Shown here piece by piece: positions 3,443-30,879 of a stretch of 38,508 nucleotides of DNA. Location of the stretch: positions 1 through 38,508 of IMG/VR virus record IMGVR_UViG_3300027852_000098, one strand, 5' to 3'. The position numbers and the translations under genes are program-made. Origin of the DNA: a virus. Each line of letters starts with the position of its first letter. Position 1 is the first letter of the stretch. The notes below the pieces were generated by a model, which was given only the letters and a program-made list of their open reading frames with translations, was not told the DNA's origin and ran no database searches.

Positions 3443-3688
3443 TTATGCACCTGACGTTTCGAAAAGAACCCGCCCAGGAAAAGGTTTTGTCCTTGCCTGG
3501 CAACAATATTCAATATGGCAGCTAGCGCACCTACTCTCACCGGCGGTAACAAACACCCTCCCATACGGAGGTTTTATTTCAAACCCACAATCGGAACATA
3601 ACGAAGCACGCCGCTGTTCCTTTTCATCTTCCGTTATATTCTCTGGCCTTCTTAATAACAGGGGTATATCAATATATTCATCGTTCAT
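3443..3688 (-). CDS. Small cysteine-containing phage protein
   Basis: An 81-residue protein of unknown function. Its ATG overlaps the helicase stop codon (ATGA), which fixes the start. The N-terminus carries I-P-L-L-L-R-R-P-E-N-I-T-E-D-E-K, nearly identical to the N-terminus of the otherwise different protein at 11871-12236. The rest contains two CxxC pairs (C-S-D-C and C-A-S-C), suggesting a zinc ribbon. The stop TAA lies inside GCATAAC, the kind of box found at the ends of the cassette genes at 11.5-12.8 kb. Confidence 0.65.
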   Translation of the reverse strand: MNDEYIDIPLLLRRPENITEDEKEQRRASLCSDCGFEIKPPYGRVFVTAGESRCASCHIEYCCQARTKPFPGRVLFETSGA

Positions 3689-5103
3689 GCTTGCTTCCCA
3701 TAGCCCCAATCCTCACCACCAGAAGCCCCCGCACCCGCAGCCCCACGGCCATCCTCCCGGTCAAAACTACTCTGCGAATTCATCCGGTAATACTGGCCCT
3801 GCCACTCCAGGTAATCGGTGCCCGTCTCGCCATCGCGCAGCTTCGCGGTAATCACCTCCACCTGCCCTGGGTGGTTCGTGCTGTCTGGGTAATAATATTC
3901 ATCGCGATACAAAAACTGCACCACATCAGCATCCTGCTCAATGGCCCCACTGTCACGCAGGTCAGACAACACCGGGCGCTTATCACGCCGCTCCTCCACC
4001 TTGCGGCTCAGCTGCGCGGCGATAATCACCGGGCAAGCCAGCTCCTTGGCTAGCTTCTTGAGTCCACGGGTAATCTCCGCAATCCGCAAGGCCTGTGTAT
4101 CCACCCGGCCATCAACATCCACTAGGCCTAGGTAATCGACCAACACCAAACCCACTGCCGCCCGCCGGTGCGCTGTGCGCGCCATTGCCGCAATCTCCGC
4201 TATCGTCAGGCTCGCTGCATCACACAGCTGCACACGCAAATCCTTCAACTCACCAATCGCTGTCACCATCCGGTTTAAGCTCGCCTCGTGACCAAACACC
4301 TTCGCGCTTTTCAGTAAATCCCCTTTCACCTCACCCTGCGCGCCCACCAGGCGCTGCACCAGCTCGGTGTTATTCATCTCCAGCGTGTACATCAAAATTT
4401 GATAATCATGGTTTTGCAGCGCCACCTGGCGCATAACATTAAGCAGATAATTCGTCTTACCCATGCCCGGTCGAGCACCCACCACCACCAAATTACCCGG
4501 CTGCAAACCGTTCAAACGATGGTCAATATTGTGATAACCCGTCTGTAAACCGCGCAGCCCAGGGTTCTGGTGCTGGTCATCCTTCAGCTCAATAAACCGC
4601 CCCAGCGCCAGCGATAAAGACTCAAACCCAATCCCGCTGGGCCGACCCTCCAGCGTCACCAGCAAACTCTCCGCCCGCGCCACCGCATCCGCTACCGTCG
4701 AGTCATAAAACCCATCCACAGCAGCATGCAAAGTTGCTATCCAATGCCGCTCATGGGCACGGCGTAAAATAATCCCCGCGTAAGCCCCCACATTCGCGGC
4801 GCTGGGCGTGTTTCGCGTCAGCTCTACCAAATACTCCAAACCACCCATCGCCTCCAGCCTGTCGCTGCGCTCCAACTCCTCCGAAAGCGTCACGATATCC
4901 AGCGGCTGACCGATAGCCGCCTGGGCCTGCATCGCCTGCCAAATATCCTGATGCGCCTGCGCAAAAAAATGCTCAGCCCGCAAACCCTCATCCACCACCA
5001 GGGCATAAGCACCAGAATCCAGCATCAACCCACCCAACACCGCTTGCTCAGCCTCCAGGCTGTAGGGTGGCGGTTTTATCATTGCCTGTGAATCAACAGC
5101 CAT
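3685..5103 (-). CDS. Replicative DNA helicase, DnaB type
   Basis: A 472-residue DnaB-family helicase. The N-terminal interaction domain begins near P-Y-S-L-E-A-E-Q-A-V-L-G-G; the RecA-like motor has Walker A G-A-R-P-G-M-G-K-T (about residues 209-217), a Walker B-like L-V-L-V-D-Y-L-G-L and the S-D-L-R-D-S-G-A-I-E-Q-D-A-D motif. It is the ring helicase that unwinds DNA at the phage fork, so the phage would not need to recruit the host DnaB. The ATG at 5103 overlaps the initiator gene stop (TGATG); a GTG at 5106 is an alternative. The glycine- and serine-rich C-terminal tail is an addition to the family core. Confidence 0.95.
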   Translation of the reverse strand: MAVDSQAMIKPPPYSLEAEQAVLGGLMLDSGAYALVVDEGLRAEHFFAQAHQDIWQAMQAQAAIGQPLDIVTLSEELERSDRLEAMGGLEYLVELTRNTPSAANVGAYAGIILRRAHERHWIATLHAAVDGFYDSTVADAVARAESLLVTLEGRPSGIGFESLSLALGRFIELKDDQHQNPGLRGLQTGYHNIDHRLNGLQPGNLVVVGARPGMGKTNYLLNVMRQVALQNHDYQILMYTLEMNNTELVQRLVGAQGEVKGDLLKSAKVFGHEASLNRMVTAIGELKDLRVQLCDAASLTIAEIAAMARTAHRRAAVGLVLVDYLGLVDVDGRVDTQALRIAEITRGLKKLAKELACPVIIAAQLSRKVEERRDKRPVLSDLRDSGAIEQDADVVQFLYRDEYYYPDSTNHPGQVEVITAKLRDGETGTDYLEWQGQYYRMNSQSSFDREDGRGAAGAGASGGEDWGYGKQA

Positions 5104-10873: not shown

Positions 10874-11114
10874 ACAACAAAACAAAAAACCCTATACCTG
10901 CAAAATGAAAACATCACATAGGGGCAGCGTTTATCTGAAATTCGCACCTTACGGTTGGGCACAAACCGCCGCCGAGGCAGATCATTTCACCAGCCCAAAA
11001 CACGCCCTGGAAAGATACCTCGCCTGCTTTCTGCATTCAGACAGTTACCAAAAAGACATCGCCGACGGCACCGTGTTTGCAGAACACACCCAACAGCAAT
11101 CACTACTGATTTGA
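10866..11114 (+). CDS. Small phage protein
   Basis: An 82-residue protein overlapping the gene before it by eight bases. The core P-Y-T-C-K-M-K-T-S-H-R-G-S-V-Y-L and F-T-S-P-K-H-A-L-E-R-Y-L suggests a compact fold. Unknown function. Its stop overlaps the TTG start of the next gene, so they are co-translated. Confidence 0.6.
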   Translation: MTEQQNKKPYTCKMKTSHRGSVYLKFAPYGWAQTAAEADHFTSPKHALERYLACFLHSDSYQKDIADGTVFAEHTQQQSLLI

Positions 11115-11422
11115 AATGGAGACGAATCAATGACCACTACGCAGAGAGCGACACCGGCTACCGGATCACCATCGGCCAATACAAAGACCAACCCGTCCAT
11201 TGCGCCACCGCGCCAAAAGGCGCGCCAAAGCCCCAGCCCTGCGAAGCCGTCTGCGGCATCACAGGCGCAATGCTTATCGGCTACTTTCACGGCCCAAACG
11301 CAAAACGCGCAGCACTCGACGCCTGCGCCCAGCATGCAGCAACACCAAATCAACCAGCTCAAAGAAACCCTCAACCAAACAGCACCCATGATCCAGCAAC
11401 TACACCACCAGGGCCTGATTAG
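11111..11422 (+). CDS. Small phage protein
   Basis: A 103-residue protein starting with TTG at 11111, in a TTGA overlap with the preceding stop. W-R-R-I-N-D-H-Y-A-E-S-D-T-G-Y-R-I-T and A-A-L-D-A-C-A-Q-H match a common small phage protein type of unknown function. The last 25 residues are low-complexity Pro/Asn/Thr. A longer reading from 10955 would overlap the real gene at 10866-11114 and was not used. Confidence 0.55.
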   Translation: MKWRRINDHYAESDTGYRITIGQYKDQPVHCATAPKGAPKPQPCEAVCGITGAMLIGYFHGPNAKRAALDACAQHAATPNQPAQRNPQPNSTHDPATTPPGPD

Positions 11423-11507
11423 CACCGCCACTCACAACGCCATCAAAGATGAATTTGAATTATCGCGGATAACGTTAAGCGAATGGAGTCAGCCTGCGGG
11501 GGTTTAA
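11334..11507 (+). CDS. Small helical phage protein, last gene before the cassette block
   Basis: A 57-residue protein (Q-I-N-Q-L-K-E-T-L-N-Q-T-A-P-M-I) overlapping the previous gene by 89 bases in another frame. Its stop TAA lies inside GTTTAAC, the first box of the attC-like site A. A longer frame from 11130 covers the opposite reading of the previous gene and was not chosen. Unknown function. Confidence 0.5.
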   Translation: MQQHQINQLKETLNQTAPMIQQLHHQGLISTATHNAIKDEFELSRITLSEWSQPAGV

Positions 11508-11559
11508 CCAAAGCAGCAGGGGCGAGCGTTAGCGAGTCCGATGGCTGTAATTGTTATGC
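11502..11559 (+). other. attC-like recombination site A
   Basis: Boxes in integron order: R'' GTTTAAC (11502-11508), spacer CAAAG, L'' CAGC (11514-11517), L' GCTG (11544-11547), spacer TAATT, R' GTTATGC (11553-11559). The inner arms form an imperfect hairpin (CAGC/GCTG, GGGC/GTCC). Both spacers are five bases. R' departs from the GTTRRRY consensus at one position. Confidence 0.65.
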
Positions 11560-11574
11560 GACATGGAGATTGAC

Positions 11575-11853
11575 ATGGAACACAGGCAGCACGAATTAAG
11601 CAGCTTTGAAGATTTACTGAAGTTACGTGATGATCAGGTGGAGCGCTTGAGCGCTGAGCTGCCAGAGATCATTAAACAAGTTAGGGCGTTTATGGATTTA
11701 CTGAATGCCTGCGGTGAATCTGCTGGAGCGGAAACACCTGTTGCTAAGGCGCTTAACCCTCTAGTGTGGATCGATGATGGGAGCAGCGATTTAACTATGT
11801 CGCTTTCCGATGGAGAAAAGGAGCGCCTGCGCTATGAAGCCAAGGGCGCATAA
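11575..11853 (+). CDS. Cassette-borne protein of unknown function
   Basis: A 92-residue protein from the ATG at 11575, with GGAG six bases upstream. Acidic and helical (S-S-F-E-D-L-L-K-L-R-D-D-Q-V-E-R-L-S-A-E), ending S-D-G-E-K-E-R-L-R-Y. Its coding style is G-rich and unlike the C-rich phage genes to the left. The stop lies in GCATAAC (11848-11854), the exact complement of the cassette start GTTATGC. Confidence 0.6.
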   Translation: MEHRQHELSSFEDLLKLRDDQVERLSAELPEIIKQVRAFMDLLNACGESAGAETPVAKALNPLVWIDDGSSDLTMSLSDGEKERLRYEAKGA

Positions 11854-11870
11854 CCCGGAGGTAAGCGGCT

Positions 11871-12236
11871 GTGAGCGACCCCGAATGGCTGGAAATACCC
11901 TTATTTTTAAGGAGGCCCGAGAATATGACTGACGAAGAAAAAGAGCGACGCCGCTCACAGTCCGAGCCGAAGGCTGACCTTGACCTTGTTGTTATGGCTG
12001 TTACTGGATACGTTAGCTATGACGTTCGAGCGGACTGCCCTCACTGCATGAAAAGGCTTTGCTTGAACCAATATCCATACACCGACGAAGCAAGTGAATA
12101 CGCACTGCCAGAGGATGAGTTAGGACTGGCTTTGTTTGGCATGAAAAACGAGCCTGCAAAATGGGAGGGGCTTGATATTAAGTATCAGTGCTGCGGGTGC
12201 AAAGGCAAATTTTCGCTTGGACGTATGGAGCCATAA
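11871..12236 (+). CDS. Cassette-borne zinc-binding protein with I-P-L-F-L-R-R-P N-terminus
   Basis: A 121-residue protein starting with GTG after GGAGG. The first 25 residues (E-I-P-L-F-L-R-R-P-E-N-M-T-D-E-E-K-E) match the N-terminus of the gene at 3443-3688. The rest has C-P-H-C and C-C-G-C clusters, likely a zinc fold. Function unknown. Its stop is inside CCATAAC, the first box of attC-like site B. Confidence 0.65.
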   Translation: MSDPEWLEIPLFLRRPENMTDEEKERRRSQSEPKADLDLVVMAVTGYVSYDVRADCPHCMKRLCLNQYPYTDEASEYALPEDELGLALFGMKNEPAKWEGLDIKYQCCGCKGKFSLGRMEP

Positions 12237-12278
12237 CCACATCAGCAGCGGTTTATCCGCTGGCTGTAATTGTTAAGT
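12231..12278 (+). other. attC-like recombination site B
   Basis: R'' CCATAAC (12231-12237), spacer CACAT, left arm CAGC-AGCGG (12243-12251), loop TTTAT, right arm CCGCT-G-GCTG (12257-12266) with one extrahelical G, spacer TAATT, R' GTTAAGT (12272-12278), which fits GTTRRRY. A nine-pair stem with a bulged base and two five-base spacers is the standard attC fold. GGCTGTAATTGTTA is shared with site A. Confidence 0.75.
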
Positions 12279-12293
12279 ATAGGAGGAGAAGAC

Positions 12294-12524
12294 ATGAATA
12301 TGGTACGGGTGAAAGAAGGCAAGGCGCGATTTATTGCAGGAGGGAATGAAATTCCGGTGGCACACCTCGGCTATCAAGTAATGCCCAGCGATGGGTTTTA
12401 TAAAAGTAGTGCTGCTACATGCGGAAACAATAGCGGCTGCTATGTTGGGAACCACAAAAAAGATTGTGTTTCGTACTGCCGGGGTAAATGCGCGGTGTAT
12501 TTTCTAACTAATGCAGCCACTTAA
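12294..12524 (+). CDS. Cassette-borne cysteine-rich protein
   Basis: A 76-residue protein from the ATG at 12294 with a very good AGGAGGAG site. V-K-E-G-K-A-R-F-I-A-G-G-N-E-I-P begins a probable beta fold, and five Cys follow (A-T-C-G-N-N, C-Y-V-G, D-C-V-S-Y-C-R-G-K-C). Unknown function. It is the single gene of the segment between sites B and C, the usual content of an integron cassette. The stop lies inside ACTTAAC. Confidence 0.65.
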   Translation: MNMVRVKEGKARFIAGGNEIPVAHLGYQVMPSDGFYKSSAATCGNNSGCYVGNHKKDCVSYCRGKCAVYFLTNAAT

Positions 12525-12579
12525 CCTTTATGTTAAAGGGCTGCGCTTTTCGCAGTCCATTTTGAATGACTTGTTAGTT
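12519..12579 (+). other. attC-like recombination site C
   Basis: R'' ACTTAAC (12519-12525, fits RYYYAAC), an inner stem GGGCTGCG/CGCAGTCC (12538-12545, 12551-12558) around CTTTT, and R' GTTAGTT (12573-12579). R'' is the exact complement of the R' of site B, which begins the segment, as in an integron cassette. Outer arms pair less well than in site B. Confidence 0.6.
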
Positions 12580-12603
12580 TTCGACCAGCTATGGAGTATA
12601 GAT

Positions 12604-12789
12604 ATGAATGACAATGAATTAGTAAGCGGGCCATTTGTAAGGATTGTTGGTGATGGTTGCGATGTGATGGTGAGGGTTGAAGATATAGACGACATTAACA
12701 TAGCGCACAAGGCTATTGATTTAGCATTTACAAGGTACAAGGCGAGGATGGATAAAGTTGTTGGACGGCCTGAAAATGAAGAAAACTAA
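12604..12789 (+). CDS. Small cassette-borne protein
   Basis: A 61-residue acidic protein from the ATG at 12604 after TGGAG; a longer frame from 12511 crosses attC-like site C. Contains V-R-I-V-G-D-G-C-D-V-M-V-R-V and I-A-H-K-A-I-D-L-A-F. Unknown function. Its stop is inside AACTAAC (12784-12790), the exact complement of the R' of site C, but no second half-site follows. Confidence 0.6.
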   Translation: MNDNELVSGPFVRIVGDGCDVMVRVEDIDDINIAHKAIDLAFTRYKARMDKVVGRPENEEN

Positions 12790-12812
12790 CCCAGAACTTT
12801 GAGGACGAGCGA

Positions 12813-13118
12813 ATGAAAACCCTTGAATGTGACAAACGACAGCCATTTAAAGGCTGGGCTGGTGGTAATTATGAATGCAAATGTCTTGGGTGTGGGGAGA
12901 GCTTCATTGGAGACAAGCGCCGTATTACTTGTGCCGACTGCGCCTACGCACCAGAGCCAGCGAGTTCCGGCAACAGTGATTTGTTATTGCGTGCAACCTC
13001 TGATATTGAGTTTGACGGCCAGGACTTTCGTATGGCCGATAAGCCAGAACTGGTGCTGGTTCTGTTAAATACGGAAACGGGCGCATATATGACTCCGCCA
13101 TTGGTGGTGGAGCAATAA
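12813..13118 (+). CDS. Zinc-ribbon protein of unknown function
   Basis: A 101-residue protein with GAGG eight bases before the ATG. Zinc ribbon formed by C-K-C-L-G-C and C-A-D-C, then a beta-rich half ending P-P-L-V-V-E-Q. Base use resembles the cassette genes rather than the phage genes. Stop inside CAATAAC. It may be a cassette gene that lost its flanking site or an original phage gene. Confidence 0.6.
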   Translation: MKTLECDKRQPFKGWAGGNYECKCLGCGESFIGDKRRITCADCAYAPEPASSGNSDLLLRATSDIEFDGQDFRMADKPELVLVLLNTETGAYMTPPLVVEQ

Positions 13119-13477: not shown

Positions 13478-13705
13478 ATGAACGACACCCTCACAGACAA
13501 CGAGATCACCCAAATCACTGGCGTACAAGCCAGGGCCCATAACCGTGTCGAGAGAATAAGCCGCATACTAAATATGGCCGGGATTTATTTTTGGTTAAGC
13601 GAAAAAGGAACCGTCACCACCACCTGGACCCACGTACACCGGGCAGGGCTAGACAACACCGAAAACCCCAATGTTAAGATGCCACATTTTCAAAAGGTAT
13701 CCTGA
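13478..13705 (+). CDS. DUF4224 protein, possible excisionase-like partner of the integrase
   Basis: A 75-residue protein with the DUF4224 pattern: L-T-D-N-E-I-T-Q-I-T-G-V, then R-I-L-N-M-A-G-I-Y-F-W and G-T-V-T-T-T-W. Such genes stand directly before tyrosine integrases in many phages. Its stop overlaps the integrase start (TGATG), so expression is coupled. A role in recombination direction is inferred from position. Confidence 0.75.
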   Translation: MNDTLTDNEITQITGVQARAHNRVERISRILNMAGIYFWLSEKGTVTTTWTHVHRAGLDNTENPNVKMPHFQKVS

Positions 13706-14766
13706 TGCCAAAACTCTCTAATTTCGTCACCAGAAAATGGGTCACAGCCAAAGGCGAAAAACGCGAATGCTACTACTACCGCCGCCCACGATCGGAAGGC
13801 CGCAAAGAAATATCCCTCGGCTCAGACTACCCGCAAGCCCTTAAAAAATACGCCAACATCGTCGGTGCTGAAACAGCAAAACCACCGCCAGAAACTATCG
13901 CGGCAGTCTATACCGACTACATGACCTGGGCAGAAAACCGGAAAATATCAAACCTCTCACTCCGCACCATCAGCGACCGCAAGTACTACTGGAAAAACCT
14001 GTCCACCGTGTTTGGTCACTGCAACATAGACGACTTCCAGCCAGAATGGGCGCTCACCTATTTCGAAGAACGCAGCTCACAAGTCAGCGCAAAAAAAGAA
14101 CTAAAATTCCTATCCGTCATATTCAACTGGGCCAGAGCACGCGGCAAAATGCACACGCCCAACCCCTGCCTCGGCATCATGGCCCAACTCACCATCAACG
14201 AAACCAGAGAGATCTACGTAGAAGACACCTGGTACCAACTCGCCCTCAAACACAGCTGTCAAATGGTCAAAGACGTGCTTGAATTCACACTCATCTTCGC
14301 CAACCGACCCGCAGAAACCCAGGCCGCCATGTTCCAACACATAGAAGACGATGAACTCGTCATAGAACTGCAAAAAACCAAAGGCAAAGGGCTTAAAGAA
14401 AAACGCATCCCCCTCGATGGCGCACGCCTAGAATTCATCAACCGACAAAAAGCCAACCCAGTCAGATCCTTCTACATCGTCAGCGATAACGAAGGCCAGC
14501 GAATCAGAATGAACGGCAACAAATTCAAAGCCGCCTGGAAAAAAGCCAGAGACAAAGCCCAGACCGAAGCCAAACAGAAAAACCTACCGTTCGAACGATT
14601 CCAACTACGCGATATACGCGCAAAAGCCGCCACCGACATAGCCAGAGATCACGGCATCGAAGCCGCCAGATTAATGCTCGGCCACACCACCCAAAAACAG
14701 ACAGCGGCATATATCCGATCAGTCAAAGGCGCAGCTAAAATCGCACTAAAAACACAAAGTGGGTGA
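13705..14766 (+). CDS. int: Tyrosine-family site-specific integrase
   Basis: A 353-residue recombinase. The N-terminal part resembles an arm-binding domain (Y-Y-Y-R-R-P-R-S-E-G-R-K-E-I-S-L-G), followed by a core-binding domain and the catalytic domain. Visible residues: Arg201 (A-N-R-P-A-E-T), a lysine around 226, Arg305 (D-I-R-A-K-A), His327 (L-G-H-T) and the nucleophile Tyr336 (A-A-Y-I-R). The position usually held by the first active-site His is Arg302 (Q-L-R-D-I-R). AAGG precedes the ATG. It integrates the phage at the adjacent tRNA-Arg-derived attP; its last codons overlap an arm-type repeat. Confidence 0.95.
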   Translation: MPKLSNFVTRKWVTAKGEKRECYYYRRPRSEGRKEISLGSDYPQALKKYANIVGAETAKPPPETIAAVYTDYMTWAENRKISNLSLRTISDRKYYWKNLSTVFGHCNIDDFQPEWALTYFEERSSQVSAKKELKFLSVIFNWARARGKMHTPNPCLGIMAQLTINETREIYVEDTWYQLALKHSCQMVKDVLEFTLIFANRPAETQAAMFQHIEDDELVIELQKTKGKGLKEKRIPLDGARLEFINRQKANPVRSFYIVSDNEGQRIRMNGNKFKAAWKKARDKAQTEAKQKNLPFERFQLRDIRAKAATDIARDHGIEAARLMLGHTTQKQTAAYIRSVKGAAKIALKTQSG

Positions 14767-25907: not shown

Positions 25908-26410
25908 TAGCTTTCAGCACCAATGATGGTGATGATGTAGTCAGCGGTGTTTACGCCGTCGTCGTTAGTGATATCGAGAATATCGCCGGTGCCTGCTGTG
26001 ACCGCGTAACCGCCCGCATCAGGCGCGACCAACACCAGCACACCACCGGGTTTAATCACGATAGTCTCTGTGCCCCCGCCCAGGAACGACGCAAAAGGGT
26101 TGGCGTTACCGCCCAGGGTAATAGTGCCCTGGTTACCGACGGCGGCCTCAAAAACAATGGCCTTAACCCTCGCCAGCGCAACGGCCTGACCGATGTCGTT
26201 GGTTAAGGTGCCCGTCAGGTCTAGCGAGTCAACCGCCGAGGCCGCCAGTTGTGCAGCGCTCGAATACAGTTGGTCCGCCTGATTTAGCCCAGCACCGTCG
26301 GCAAAGGATTGGGCGATGGATTTAGCAATTTTGTGGCTGGCCTCACCTACGCTGGCAGCGCCAACTAGATCAGCACCCACCTGGACTTGCACATTCGCTT
26401 TCAGTGTCAT
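25907..26410 (-). CDS. Small tail protein of unknown function
   Basis: A 167-residue protein with a helical N-terminal half (A-K-S-I-A-Q-S-F-A-D-G) and a Gly-rich beta half (I-V-I-K-P-G-G-V-L-V-L-V-A-P-D). Its place between the GT chaperone and the tape measure is unusual in lambda-like tails. Overlaps: ATGA before, one base after. Possibly an additional tail or tail-surface protein. Confidence 0.6.
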   Translation of the reverse strand: MTLKANVQVQVGADLVGAASVGEASHKIAKSIAQSFADGAGLNQADQLYSSAAQLAASAVDSLDLTGTLTNDIGQAVALARVKAIVFEAAVGNQGTITLGGNANPFASFLGGGTETIVIKPGGVLVLVAPDAGGYAVTAGTGDILDITNDDGVNTADYIITIIGAES

Positions 26411-27047
26411 GGTTTTTTCCTCGGTTTGATTTTGTCCCGCAGAAAATCGCGGAAGTTAAGCAGTTTTGATTTGCGTGCCTGGCGAACGTCCTGCCACATA
26501 AATTCGCTGAGCGGACGCGCAGGTTTGTTTTTGCCACGATATCTATTTGCCATCAGGCAGGTAAGCTGGCCGATGCGCCAGTCTTCGCGCATGCTGCCAA
26601 TAGGGTCTATACGGTTATAGGCCAGCCAATAGGTAAATTCGTGGCTGGGCATGGTGGTGATAATGTCGGAGGCATTGCGACCCTGGGCTAACGCCAGGTC
26701 ATAAACGAATTTTAGCTCGGGCCGCTCTCGGAGTTTTTTTCAGCTTCCTCGCTGGCTTCTTCCCCAAGGCCTGATAACTCCAGCACTTTGTTACCGATGG
26801 CAGCTACCACCCTGGGATCTATTTCATCCACGATTTGCTGCGGCTCTTGACCACCCAGAGCTTCACAGCCGTTAGCTGCGCAATAGGCAAAATACAGCCC
26901 AGGGTTGTCTGGGTTTTCTTTAACGAAACTCAAACCCTCAAGACGCCCTTTGATATCCATCGCCACCACTGGCAACATTTCACCATTAGGCAACTCAACT
27001 TCCCCAGCCGGCCATGGGGCGACGGCTTTTAAGTCTTCATAATCCAT
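26407..27047 (-). CDS. Tail assembly chaperone GT, made by -1 frameshift
   Basis: Reading shifts by -1 at A-AAA-AAC (26739-26733), giving about 105 residues of G joined to 108 residues in the second frame (213 in all). The frame after the slip reads L-R-E-R-P-E-L-K-F-V-Y-D-L-A-L-A-Q-G, then M-P-S-H-E-F-T-Y-W-L-A-Y-N-R-I-D-P, the conserved T domain of lambda-like GT proteins. GT binds the tape measure and helps tube assembly. The T frame has an internal ATG at 26652 but no good ribosome binding site there. Confidence 0.85.
26712..27047 (-). CDS. Tail assembly chaperone G
   Basis: A 111-residue protein: V-A-P-W-P-A-G-E-V-E-L-P-N-G, V-A-M-D-I-K-G-R-L, and a C-terminal acidic tail rich in Glu and Ser. 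It is the product without frameshift and starts one base into the tail tube stop codon (TAATG). G and GT together coat the tape measure before tube polymerisation. Confidence 0.85.
   Translation of the reverse strand: MDYEDLKAVAPWPAGEVELPNGEMLPVVAMDIKGRLEGLSFVKENPDNPGLYFAYCAANGCEALGGQEPQQIVDEIDPRVVAAIGNKVLELSGLGEEASEEAEKNSESGPS
26733..26739 (-). promoter_or_regulatory. Slippery heptamer A-AAA-AAC
   Basis: In the G frame the codons read GAA AAA AAC; the heptamer lets both tRNAs re-pair on AAA AAA. It lies seven codons before the G stop (SESGPS, then stop). Its position matches that of lambda G/T. Confidence 0.85.
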
Positions 27048-27472
27048 TACCAGTCACCACCGATCTCGCCGCTGATTTTAAAGCCGAAACCCATTTTGTT
27101 TTGCTCACTGGTGCCGGGCAATAACTGGGCAGACAAAACCGTCAAAGTCACAGTGAACGTTTCTAAAGTGGTACCGTCATTAATGTAAACTTCTGCGTCG
27201 ACGTTAGCTGCGTTTTTAGCAGCAGTACGCACTTGGTTTTGCACGGTAGCCGTTTGCACCCGGTTACATTGAACCGTGAATTCATCACCGTCTTTCAACC
27301 CGCCGATAAACTCTTTGTAGCCGTTAGACTGATGATTTGTGGTTTCGATCAGGTCCGCCGTGGTGCCTATCGTGGGCGGCTCAAGGATCTGCTCCAGCTC
27401 GTTAAATGTGGGGCTTGGCTGTCCGTCGGAAATTCTCATTCCCCAGCCTTCTTTAAATGCGCCAGTTGTCAT
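27047..27472 (-). CDS. Major tail tube protein
   Basis: A 141-residue protein of the lambda gpV/TTP type: F-N-E-L-E-Q-I-L-E-P-P-T-I-G, G-Y-K-E-F-I-G-G-L-K-D-G-D-E-F and the final K-I-S-G-E-I-G-G-D-W. Polymerises into the tail tube. Follows the tail terminator and precedes the chaperones. Confidence 0.9.
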   Translation of the reverse strand: MTTGAFKEGWGMRISDGQPSPTFNELEQILEPPTIGTTADLIETTNHQSNGYKEFIGGLKDGDEFTVQCNRVQTATVQNQVRTAAKNAANVDAEVYINDGTTLETFTVTLTVLSAQLLPGTSEQNKMGFGFKISGEIGGDW

Positions 27473-27486
27473 GGTGTTGCCTCCTG

Positions 27487-27870
27487 TTAGCGATACCAGA
27501 TGTCGAAATTAATGGTTTGATAAACCAGTTTGGTGCTGCCTTCTCGGCCACCGAAGCGGCCTCTGTAATCAACGCTGTCAATGTAGATTTCGTCACCATC
27601 ACCAGCAGGCATTGGCCCACGATAGTCTTGCATCAAGGCTTTTATTTGCCGCTCGATGGTGATGGTTGTTTTAGGTGTTACTGCATAAATATCGATGGCG
27701 ATATCTACCGACTGTAAATCTGCCGTGCCTTGCTGGGTGCGGATCAGGTCTTCACCTTCACCACGAATCACCGCAAAAGGCGGGGTAACATCCTGCCCTG
27801 CATCGAGCCACTCAAATTGGCAGCCGGTAACATTGCTGGTCAGGTAGGCGGTCAGGGCTTCTTCGATCAT
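27487..27870 (-). CDS. Tail terminator/completion protein, DUF3168
   Basis: A 127-residue protein: I-E-E-A-L-T-A-Y-L, V-T-P-P-F-A-V-I-R, T-I-E-R-Q-I-K-A-L-M-Q-D-Y-R-G-P-M, D-S-V-D-Y-R-G. Family forms the ring that ends the tail tube and joins the head. ATGA overlap with the gene before. Confidence 0.88.
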   Translation of the reverse strand: MIEEALTAYLTSNVTGCQFEWLDAGQDVTPPFAVIRGEGEDLIRTQQGTADLQSVDIAIDIYAVTPKTTITIERQIKALMQDYRGPMPAGDGDEIYIDSVDYRGRFGGREGSTKLVYQTINFDIWYR

Positions 27871-28298
27871 TGCTTGCTGGCCACCTTGTCGATTACATGT
27901 TTCAGACGGCCGCTATAACGGCGAACCACCTCGCTTTTATTGGCCTCATACGCTGGGTCTAACCAGGGGTCTTTGGGCATATCTTTAGTGCCCACCTCAA
28001 CAAACTGGGTGCCGTAATAGGCCTCTGCTTTTGGCCCCACAAATACCAGCGCCCTGCCCTTGTCTTTACTGAGCCGTGACTTTTTAACAATGTTGCGACT
28101 AAGAAAACCCGGCGCGACCACTCGTCCTTTGTAGGTTTTGTGCGCCCTATCACCTCGCGGGGCATTGGCCCTGGCTGCTTTTACCACGGGCGTCATAGCA
28201 AACCCTGCGGCCTGTTTGATCACCTTGCCGCTGGCATTGGCGCTGAGCGCTTGCAGTTGCTTACGGAGCGCGTCGGCCCCTTCAAGTTTTGCCGCCAT
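27867..28298 (-). CDS. Head-tail joining protein, HK97 gp10 type
   Basis: A 143-residue basic protein: L-R-K-Q-L-Q-A-L-S-A, V-V-K-A-A-R-A-N-A-P-R-G, Y-Y-G-T-Q-F-V-E-V-G-T-K and D-P-W-L-D-P-A-Y, the gp10 signature. It belongs to the head-tail neck, ending one base before the next start. Confidence 0.9.
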   Translation of the reverse strand: MAAKLEGADALRKQLQALSANASGKVIKQAAGFAMTPVVKAARANAPRGDRAHKTYKGRVVAPGFLSRNIVKKSRLSKDKGRALVFVGPKAEAYYGTQFVEVGTKDMPKDPWLDPAYEANKSEVVRRYSGRLKHVIDKVASKQ

Positions 28299-28956: not shown

Positions 28957-30879
28957 TTATCCAATACGTGCCGCAGATATTCTGCCGCCAAGCTGGCAAG
29001 GGGCGAGCCTCCCATTGAGTTGCGCATCTGATAGCACGCCGGGCATAAACGCCTTTGATATGTATGTGTTGTTGCCGATTGACACCACGTTAGAGTGTTG
29101 CGTTTGCAGGCTTTCATTTGCCGCCAACTGATGGTGCTGGGTTAGCGGCACCTGGTCACTGGCCTGCGCCTGCAAGCTATCAATTATCGATAATACGTTG
29201 TGCTGGTTTAGCGCAGCGGTATCACTGGCTTGCGACTGAGCGCTATCAAGCGCAGTAATTGAAGTTGCGCCAGCAATCTCGGTAACGGTGGCGGTATCGC
29301 TGGTTTGTGCTTGAGCGCTGTCATTCGCTGCTAGAACATTATGCCCTGTGAGTGCAGCGGTATCGCTGATTTGCTCTTGAGCGCTGTCGTTGGCCGCGAG
29401 CACGTTGTGCTCTGCGAGCGCAGCCGTATCGCTCGTTTGCGACTGCGCACTATCAAGCGCCGTAATCGAAGCCGCGCCAGCGATCTCTGTAACTGTGGCT
29501 GTGTCGCTAGCCTGCGTTTGAGCGCTGTCATTGGCTGCCAGCACGTTATGTTCTGTGAGCGCAGCGGTACCGCTGGTTTGCACTTGAGCACTATCATTGG
29601 CCGCGAGTACGCTGTGCTCTGTAACAGCAGCCGTATCGCTCGTTTGCGACTGAGCACTATCAAGCGCAGTAATCGAAGCCGCGCCAACGATCTCTGTAAC
29701 TGTGGCTGTGTCGCTCGCTTGCGTTTGAGCGCTGTCATTGGCTGCCAGCACGTTATGTTCTGTGAGCGCAGCGGTATCGCTGGTTTGCACTTGAGCGCTG
29801 TCATTAGCCGCGAGCACGTTGTGCTCTGTGAGCGCAGCCGTATCGCTGGATTGCCCTTGAGCGCTATCATTGCTCGCCAGAATATTGTGTTCAGTGAGCG
29901 CTGCCGTGTCACTGCTTTGCGCTTGCGATGAATCCTGACCAACGAGATTGGCTTTTTCGGTAACGGTGGCGCTGTCACTGGCTTGCGCTTGAGCGCTGTC
30001 ATTCGACGCCAGGACGTTGTGCTCTGTGAGTGCTGCTGTATCGCTGGCTTGCGCTTGGGTGCTGTCACTCACCGAGAGCACGTTGTGCTCTGTTAGCTCT
30101 GTGGTATCGCTGGCTTGCGTCTGCGCGCTGTCGCTAACCGCGAGCACATTGTGTTGGATTAAGGCGGCAACATCGCTCGCTTGCGACTGACCCGAATCAA
30201 GCGCCGTAATGTTGGTTTTTTCGGTAACGGTAGCCGTATCGCTGGCTTGCGCTTGCGCGCTGCCATTCGCTGCCAGAACGTTATGCTCTGTAAGCGCAGC
30301 GGTATCGCTGGTTTGCGTCTGCGCGCTGTCGCTAATCGCGAGTACATAGTGCTGAGTTAAGGCGGCAACATCGCTCGCTTGCGCCTGAGCGGAATCAATC
30401 GCCGTAATGCTGGTCGATCCCGCCGAGTACGTACCGGTGATCGCAACGTGGTCCACTTCAACATGGCAACCGTCACCACCTTTTGATTTTAAGTATGTTT
30501 GCTGTAGCTCGACCGACGCGCCGTCCCACGTGGATTTATTTGCCGTGGTATTTACATAGGTAAACGCTGTAACGGAGCTGGTCGTATCAGTCGTATTCGT
30601 GATATTTGACGCAACAGATTGAAACGCCCCGCCAGAGGAACCTGCGGCCAGAATGGTTCCGCCATTAACGATCCTGATGCCCAGATCAAGCGTGTCATCT
30701 GAACGACCTTGCTGGCGGTATTCCACTTGCCAGCTGGCGGCATCCATTGTGCTAAAGTCAACGGGGCTGTCATCCAAAGCCCGAGATAATGCTTGAGTGG
30801 TGTCGTTGGAAAACTGTAAGCGACTATTGTCGCTCGCATCTAACGGTGAGGCCGGGACAAGCGTGCCTAGATCAGCCAT
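28957..30879 (-). CDS. Long repeat protein, probable virion surface fibre
   Basis: A 640-residue protein. The first 150 residues are a beta-rich domain (Q-V-E-Y-R-Q-Q-G-R, G-G-T-I-L-A-A-G), then about 20 copies of a 22-residue repeat (core D-S-A-Q-x-Q-x-S-D-T-A-A-L-T-E-H-N-V-L), and a short C-terminal domain (F-M-P-G-V-L-S-D-A-Q-L-N-G-R-L). Similar Ser/Ala/Gln/His repeats occur in phage structural proteins. It lies among head completion genes, suggesting a head decoration fibre rather than a tail fibre, but this is inference. Confidence 0.7.
   Translation of the reverse strand: MADLGTLVPASPLDASDNSRLQFSNDTTQALSRALDDSPVDFSTMDAASWQVEYRQQGRSDDTLDLGIRIVNGGTILAAGSSGGAFQSVASNITNTTDTTSSVTAFTYVNTTANKSTWDGASVELQQTYLKSKGGDGCHVEVDHVAITGTYSAGSTSITAIDSAQAQASDVAALTQHYVLAISDSAQTQTSDTAALTEHNVLAANGSAQAQASDTATVTEKTNITALDSGQSQASDVAALIQHNVLAVSDSAQTQASDTTELTEHNVLSVSDSTQAQASDTAALTEHNVLASNDSAQAQASDSATVTEKANLVGQDSSQAQSSDTAALTEHNILASNDSAQGQSSDTAALTEHNVLAANDSAQVQTSDTAALTEHNVLAANDSAQTQASDTATVTEIVGAASITALDSAQSQTSDTAAVTEHSVLAANDSAQVQTSGTAALTEHNVLAANDSAQTQASDTATVTEIAGAASITALDSAQSQTSDTAALAEHNVLAANDSAQEQISDTAALTGHNVLAANDSAQAQTSDTATVTEIAGATSITALDSAQSQASDTAALNQHNVLSIIDSLQAQASDQVPLTQHHQLAANESLQTQHSNVVSIGNNTYISKAFMPGVLSDAQLNGRLAPCQLGGRISAARIG
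29095..30420 (-). repeat. 66-base tandem repeats in the long repeat protein
   Basis: About 20 copies of a 22-codon unit; some units have an inserted I-A-G-A-A-S-I-T giving 25 codons. Groups of several units recur together, evidence of block duplication. Confidence 0.9.

Follow-up and report, generated by a model that had tools for sequence, protein, structure and literature searches.

Sequence models point to a three-cassette, integrase-less attC array in a temperate phage, with genes running antisense to their attC sites

The window analysed here, a linear IMG/VR virus record of 38,508 bases, very probably carries a three-cassette integrase-less array (CALIN) in the lysogeny/early region of a phage, combining attC sites on the minus strand with genes on the plus strand; the array would have entered by way of a host IntI and would be mobile only with one. 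Three integron-type attC sites, A, B and C, partition four small genes into three predicted cassettes, and the outermost cassette starts at a terminal half-site, D. The three sites and the end box lie where the original prediction had placed them (A 11502-11559, B 12231-12278, C 12519-12579, AACTAAC 12784-12790), and A and B each have the two five-base spacers it described (AATTA/CTTTG and AATTA/ATGTG). The R''-arm-arm-R' order it reported is present but was read on the wrong strand; it is the minus strand that shows the canonical R''-L''-L'-R' order.

11502-11559, minus strand: attC A; R''=GCATAAC (11553-11559), spacer AATTA, L'' CAG-C-CAT.., L' ..CTG-CTG, spacer CTTTG, R'=GTTAAAC (11502-11508)
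12231-12278, minus strand: attC B; R''=ACTTAAC (12272-12278), AATTA, CAG-C-CAGCGG, loop ATAAA, CCGCTG-CTG, ATGTG, R'=GTTATGG (12231-12237)
12519-12579, minus strand: attC C; R''=AACTAAC (12573-12579), AAGTC, ATT-C-AAAATGGACTGCG.., R'=GTTAAGT (12519-12525)
12784-12790, minus strand: terminal half-site D; R' box GTTAGTT at the start of the outermost cassette (plus strand AACTAAC)

Two models, both built without sequence from the window, identify the three sites as integron-type attC, far above chance. The reference set comprises 32 known attC from class 1 integrons on plasmids, one Vibrio phage array and one Shewanella phage array. A half-site profile trained on R'', the spacer and L'' (the initial 20 bases) of these 32, run on both strands, places its three best matches on the minus strand at C (12560-12579, 19.4), B (12259-12278, 16.3) and A (11540-11559, 15.6), with the next match at 12.2. 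A covariance model of 50 positions and 15 pairs from 31 known attC, purpose-built and distinct from that of IntegronFinder, likewise ranks B (19.6 bits), A (16.0) and C (15.6) first to third, all on the minus strand, with the next match at 10.0 bits; each match taken singly is borderline (E 0.05-0.36). In 400 copies of the window drawn from a third-order Markov model, 0.0125 sites per window reach the strength of the weakest of A, B and C, and at a looser cut-off a Markov window holds 0.757 sites on average, with at least three in 22 of the 400. As positive controls, the scorer recovers exactly three sites in phage TJE1, and the covariance model detects sites in TJE1, MW202573, PH101 and Shewanella phage M16-3. 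Rfam gave no match at the gathering score. An earlier combined scorer was dropped, as its best Markov copy scored 37, which made it too loose, and it missed B. An exact attC pattern derived from A and B gave one match in the viral and one in the genome collection, both at chance level, the viral one within a long structural-type gene; a second viral pattern returned four look-alike contigs in which the scorer placed no attC.

The boxes provide evidence of a different kind. Read on the minus strand against the consensus R'' RYYYAAC and R' GTTRRRY, the AAC and GTT are exact throughout, and some boxes deviate from the consensus at one or two other positions. Matched across each cassette, the boxes agree at 7/7, 7/7 and 6/7 positions, as originally predicted, versus 5/7 inside each site. 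All boxes have AAC/GTT and the neighbouring T/A in common, four positions in total, and at the three variable positions the cassette-wise matches are 3/3, 3/3 and 2/3 versus 1/3, 1/3 and 1/3 site-wise; the probability of such matching by chance is ∼4e-5, a rough figure that takes the choice of box D as fixed. Cassette-wise matching in excess of site-wise matching is the normal signature of self-closing cassettes. Half-site D matches R'' of attC C at 7/7 and nothing attC-like lies to the right of D, as expected where a cassette meets other DNA. In addition, the loop of attC A, GGACTCGCTAACGCTCGCC, shares a 19-base identity with an attC of Shewanella phage M16-3 and with one of L020, an unrelated viral contig. 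Folding, which the original prediction had proposed for each site, gave a graded outcome: B forms the predicted nine-pair stem with a single bulge (-9.4/-9.6 kcal/mol, z -3.9 versus shuffles), C has a good central hairpin only (z -3.7) in an irregular stem, and A folds no better than shuffles (z +0.55, +1.39). When the box limits of C were shifted by one base, a simple scorer chose a different pairing.

Scored with this covariance model, published phage attC reach 18-36 bits, mostly above the sites in the window, and the R' halves of the window sites fit the profile poorly (-6.0, -4.3, +0.6). These low scores, together with the poor fold of A, indicate that the sites may be weak or decaying. 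It is quite possible, if somewhat doubtful, that the array has already decayed, such that it no longer recombines and its genes are now fixed phage genes, a state that differs from the preferred reading only in present activity. One degenerate site with AAT for AAC in a related record, L033, is in line with such decay, whereas the cassette-wise boxes, still at 7/7, 7/7 and 6/7, and the well-folded B speak against it.

The cassette genes are small and have plus-strand coding character, and the RBS-like sequences upstream of them are in line with the original claim that they have ribosome binding sites of their own.

11575-11853, plus strand: gene of cassette A-B, 92 aa; RBS-like ATGGAG, best coding score in its frame, weak match to phrog_26841
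11871-12236, plus strand: gene of cassette A-B, 121 aa, Cys-rich, zinc-ribbon-like; RBS-like GGAGG, TAA stop within the left box of B
12294-12524, plus strand: gene of cassette B-C, 76 aa, Cys-rich; RBS-like AGGAGGAG, stop within the left box of C
12604-12789, plus strand: gene of cassette C-D, 61 aa; stop within box D

None of the cassette proteins has a match over cut-off in Pfam or NCBIfam, and none is found in PADLOC. The product of gene 11871 is 47% identical over 93% of its length to a stretch of the Geoalkalibacter plasmid pGSUB1; a search for relatives of gene 12294 found none, gene 12604 has no family match at cut-off, and no relative of the cassette genes was found in an integron. 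Five phage regions around relatives of gene 11871, gene 11575 and an L020 cassette gene contain no attC. The plasmid pGSUB1 carries a 48-base attC of its own (positions 768-815 of record L022, minus strand, 29.4 bits); the stretch related to gene 11871 lies ∼5 kb away from it. Elsewhere in the window, gene 3443-3709 has an N-terminal motif in common with gene 11871-12236 (IDIPLLLRRPENITEDEKEQRR / LEIPLFLRRPENMTDEEKERRR), the two proteins being otherwise different. The GC content of the block, low at 0.40-0.49, differs from the 0.47-0.60 of most genes to the left, as had been proposed, but not from the 0.47-0.50 of the genes to the right; the composition argument was dropped.

The strand of the attC sites follows from features inside them. 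The extra (extrahelical) base lies in L'' in 31 of the 32 known attC, with one tie, and L' is the better arm in 0/32. In A and B the extra base falls in L'' only if the sites are read on the minus strand, and C, with its weaker stem, is consistent with this; the spacer starts AACA on the minus strand, as in most known attC, and AACC on the plus strand. As the covariance model gives no plus-strand match at A, B or C either, the sites are assigned to the minus strand. The genes, in turn, are assigned to the plus strand: codon scores favour plus frames in all cassettes, and in 3/3 sites the reversed R' box has a stop codon at offset 3. Thus the genes run antisense to their attC, at three of three sites. 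A gene in sense with its attC is usual, not a strict requirement, for integron cassettes. It is very unlikely that the attC instead lie on the plus strand with their genes in the usual sense orientation. The stops do lie in the left boxes, just as stops of normal cassettes lie in R'', and the box matches fit equally, since box matching is symmetric under reverse complement and hence uninformative on direction; however, on the plus strand the extra base of A and B would be in L' and the spacer starts AACC, the covariance model has no match at these sites, and the leading sites of the profile are on the minus strand only. Highly improbable, too, is that the sites are phage hairpins between genes, with a role in termination or translation, whose likeness to attC is convergent: all three are intergenic within a single operon, stable hairpins form at B and C on either strand and GC-rich intergenic hairpins are common in phages, but convergence would not yield cassette-wise box pairing or half-site D, and it sits poorly with ranks 1-3 in two attC models and with the 19-base identity in the loop of A.

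The temperate phage surrounding this minus-strand array carries an excisionase and a phage-type integrase.

12813-13118, plus strand: flanking phage gene, right of the array; phrog_10481, phrog_8931, with relatives in other phages
13478-13705, plus strand: excisionase (xis), phrog_1266
13705-14766, plus strand: tyrosine integrase, phage-type (not IntI), phrog_1, E 6e-34

Its large terminase is related, at ∼47-49%, to terminases of Vibrio, Pseudomonas and other phages. The profile TIGR02249 (IntI) gives a sub-cut-off signal in all control genomes, so only matches over cut-off were counted; there were none in the 38.5-kb record, which may be incomplete, in agreement with the predicted lack of an IntI-type integrase. 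With IntI absent from the record, the array does not make up a complete integron (intI and attI), and three attC in 1.08 kb without IntI in the record class it as a CALIN. The original reading of an integron-type CALIN in a temperate phage thus holds as regards attC identity (profile and covariance model) and the lack of IntI, but the orientation is reversed and arrays of this kind were already published. A search for relatives based on the integrase found none. The early region is shared with the related record L033 (gene 6333, 84%; gene 7645, 72%; helicase, 68%) but these genes are not, and the interval in L033 from the gene 9727 homologue to the integrase contains different genes and no array; relatives with the same gene order and no boxes, which would have told against the original prediction, were not encountered. 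The degenerate attC of L033 (14520-14598, minus strand) lies between homologues of gene 2578 and of a lysozyme-like gene, overlaps the start of a small plus-strand ORF and has a matching hit in the L032 record. On the left of the array, the ORF 11130-11507 has a weak coding score over its full length, and a shorter gene from ATG 11334 together with a gene in the frame of 10955-11422 is likelier. A 640-aa protein encoded at 28957-30879 consists largely of SAQAQASDTAALTEHNVLA-type repeats.

Integrase-less arrays in phages are already known. Qi et al. 2023 describe CALINs in temperate and virulent phages and report IntI1 recombination for 5/6 tested sites, with two attC of phage TJE1 shown to recombine (PMC9892861). 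As described there, TJE1, PH101, P12002L and MW202573 likewise combine attC and small genes with no IntI, and some are temperate; most of their sites score higher than those in the window. Orientation terms in the main text of PMC9892861 led to no discussion of genes antisense to attC, nor was the mostly antisense layout of MW202573 found in that text. The new part is the reversed arrangement of genes and attC, which is also seen in L020. Scoring gene versus attC orientation by one rule across all arrays gave 19 sense, 1 antisense and 4 undecided in the control arrays (class 1, Vibrio, Shewanella). L020, which encodes a phage DNA polymerase, is antisense at 3/3 with an identical stop offset.

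71-130, 1106-1177 and 1802-1867 of L020, plus strand: three attC, with the small genes and the DNA polymerase on the minus strand

A half-site GCCTAAC ends one L020 cassette gene, as D does in the window, and one L020 cassette gene belongs to the widespread phage family phrog_12889. MW202573 has two antisense cassettes, one sense and one undecided, although the annotated genes in that region all oppose the attC. PH101 is of mixed orientation, and its reading as antisense from the annotation was dropped because of unannotated sense ORFs; among its cassettes (25919-27987 of record L042) both gene orientations seem to occur, and one unannotated sense ORF lies at 27466-27714. The annotation of TJE1 is mainly sense, and the automatic rule gives one sense, one antisense and one undecided. 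P12002L had no convincing match with the covariance model and so adds nothing on orientation. The tally of arrays is two wholly antisense, one mostly antisense, one mixed and one mainly sense; in contrast to mainly sense TJE1 and mixed PH101, the window is antisense at all three of its sites. The difference from the controls per array is modest, and cassettes within one array are not independent. Vibrio phage Va_90-11-286_p16 and Shewanella phage M16-3, which captured host-chromosome integrons, also have attC arrays within a temperate phage, but they carry intI and mostly sense cassettes, whereas the window has no intI and inverted genes. The inverted toxin-antitoxin cassette of plasmid pK522-MOX likewise has a gene antisense to its attC, but there a single inverted cassette lies amid sense ones, whereas in the window every cassette is inverted.

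Left of the array is a small phage gene that ends at 11507, and right of it the phage gene at 12813. The cassettes, each comprising TTRRRY, an inverted gene region and an attC, would run from D at 12789 to A at 11508.

11508-12789, no strand assigned: putative inserted segment of three cassettes; box anatomy suggests as its limits the G|TT cleavage points in the R' box of A and in D

The one-sided half-site D suggests that entry was most likely by IntI-catalysed insertion at a GTT core of the phage in an integron-bearing host. Insertion of cassettes into genomes at attG (Loot et al. 2024, as cited in PMC11023631) would account for a G|TT core at which one side of a cassette meets DNA that is not attC, although no empty site was found for the array in the window. 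Joining the flanks of 11508-12789 leaves the stop codon of the left gene and gene 12813 intact and gives the core GTTAAAC, which fits GTTRRRY; an empty site between these two genes would read GTTTAA/CCCAGAAC. As neither an array-free site nor an integron relative of the cassettes was found, we infer, rather than observe, insertion as a unit. Excision or rearrangement, a putative recombination, would occur only if the host supplied IntI; the strand folded and cut by that enzyme would be the plus strand, which is the bottom strand of the attC. If replication starts at the helicase/rep module at 3.7-6 kb, which is an assumption, the lagging-strand template would carry the attC bottom strand, a placement described as the more recombinogenic one (PMC11023631). 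The genes share their direction with the phage excisionase and integrase and have their own putative ribosome-binding sites, and they may be expressed by read-through from a phage promoter.

Phages are a proposed vehicle for the spread of integron cassettes between hosts. We tentatively raise the rather unlikely idea of mirrored cassettes, in which phage accessory genes antisense to attC would be expressed in the phage and silent behind the host Pc, with host integrons serving as an exchange depot for phages. Since few arrays were sampled, the antisense tendency is a lead and not a rule. If phage arrays are often antisense, they would be more than fragments of host integrons caught by chance, given that inverted genes would be silent behind a host promoter yet expressed in the phage, and the recombining attC strand would be the coding strand of the phage.
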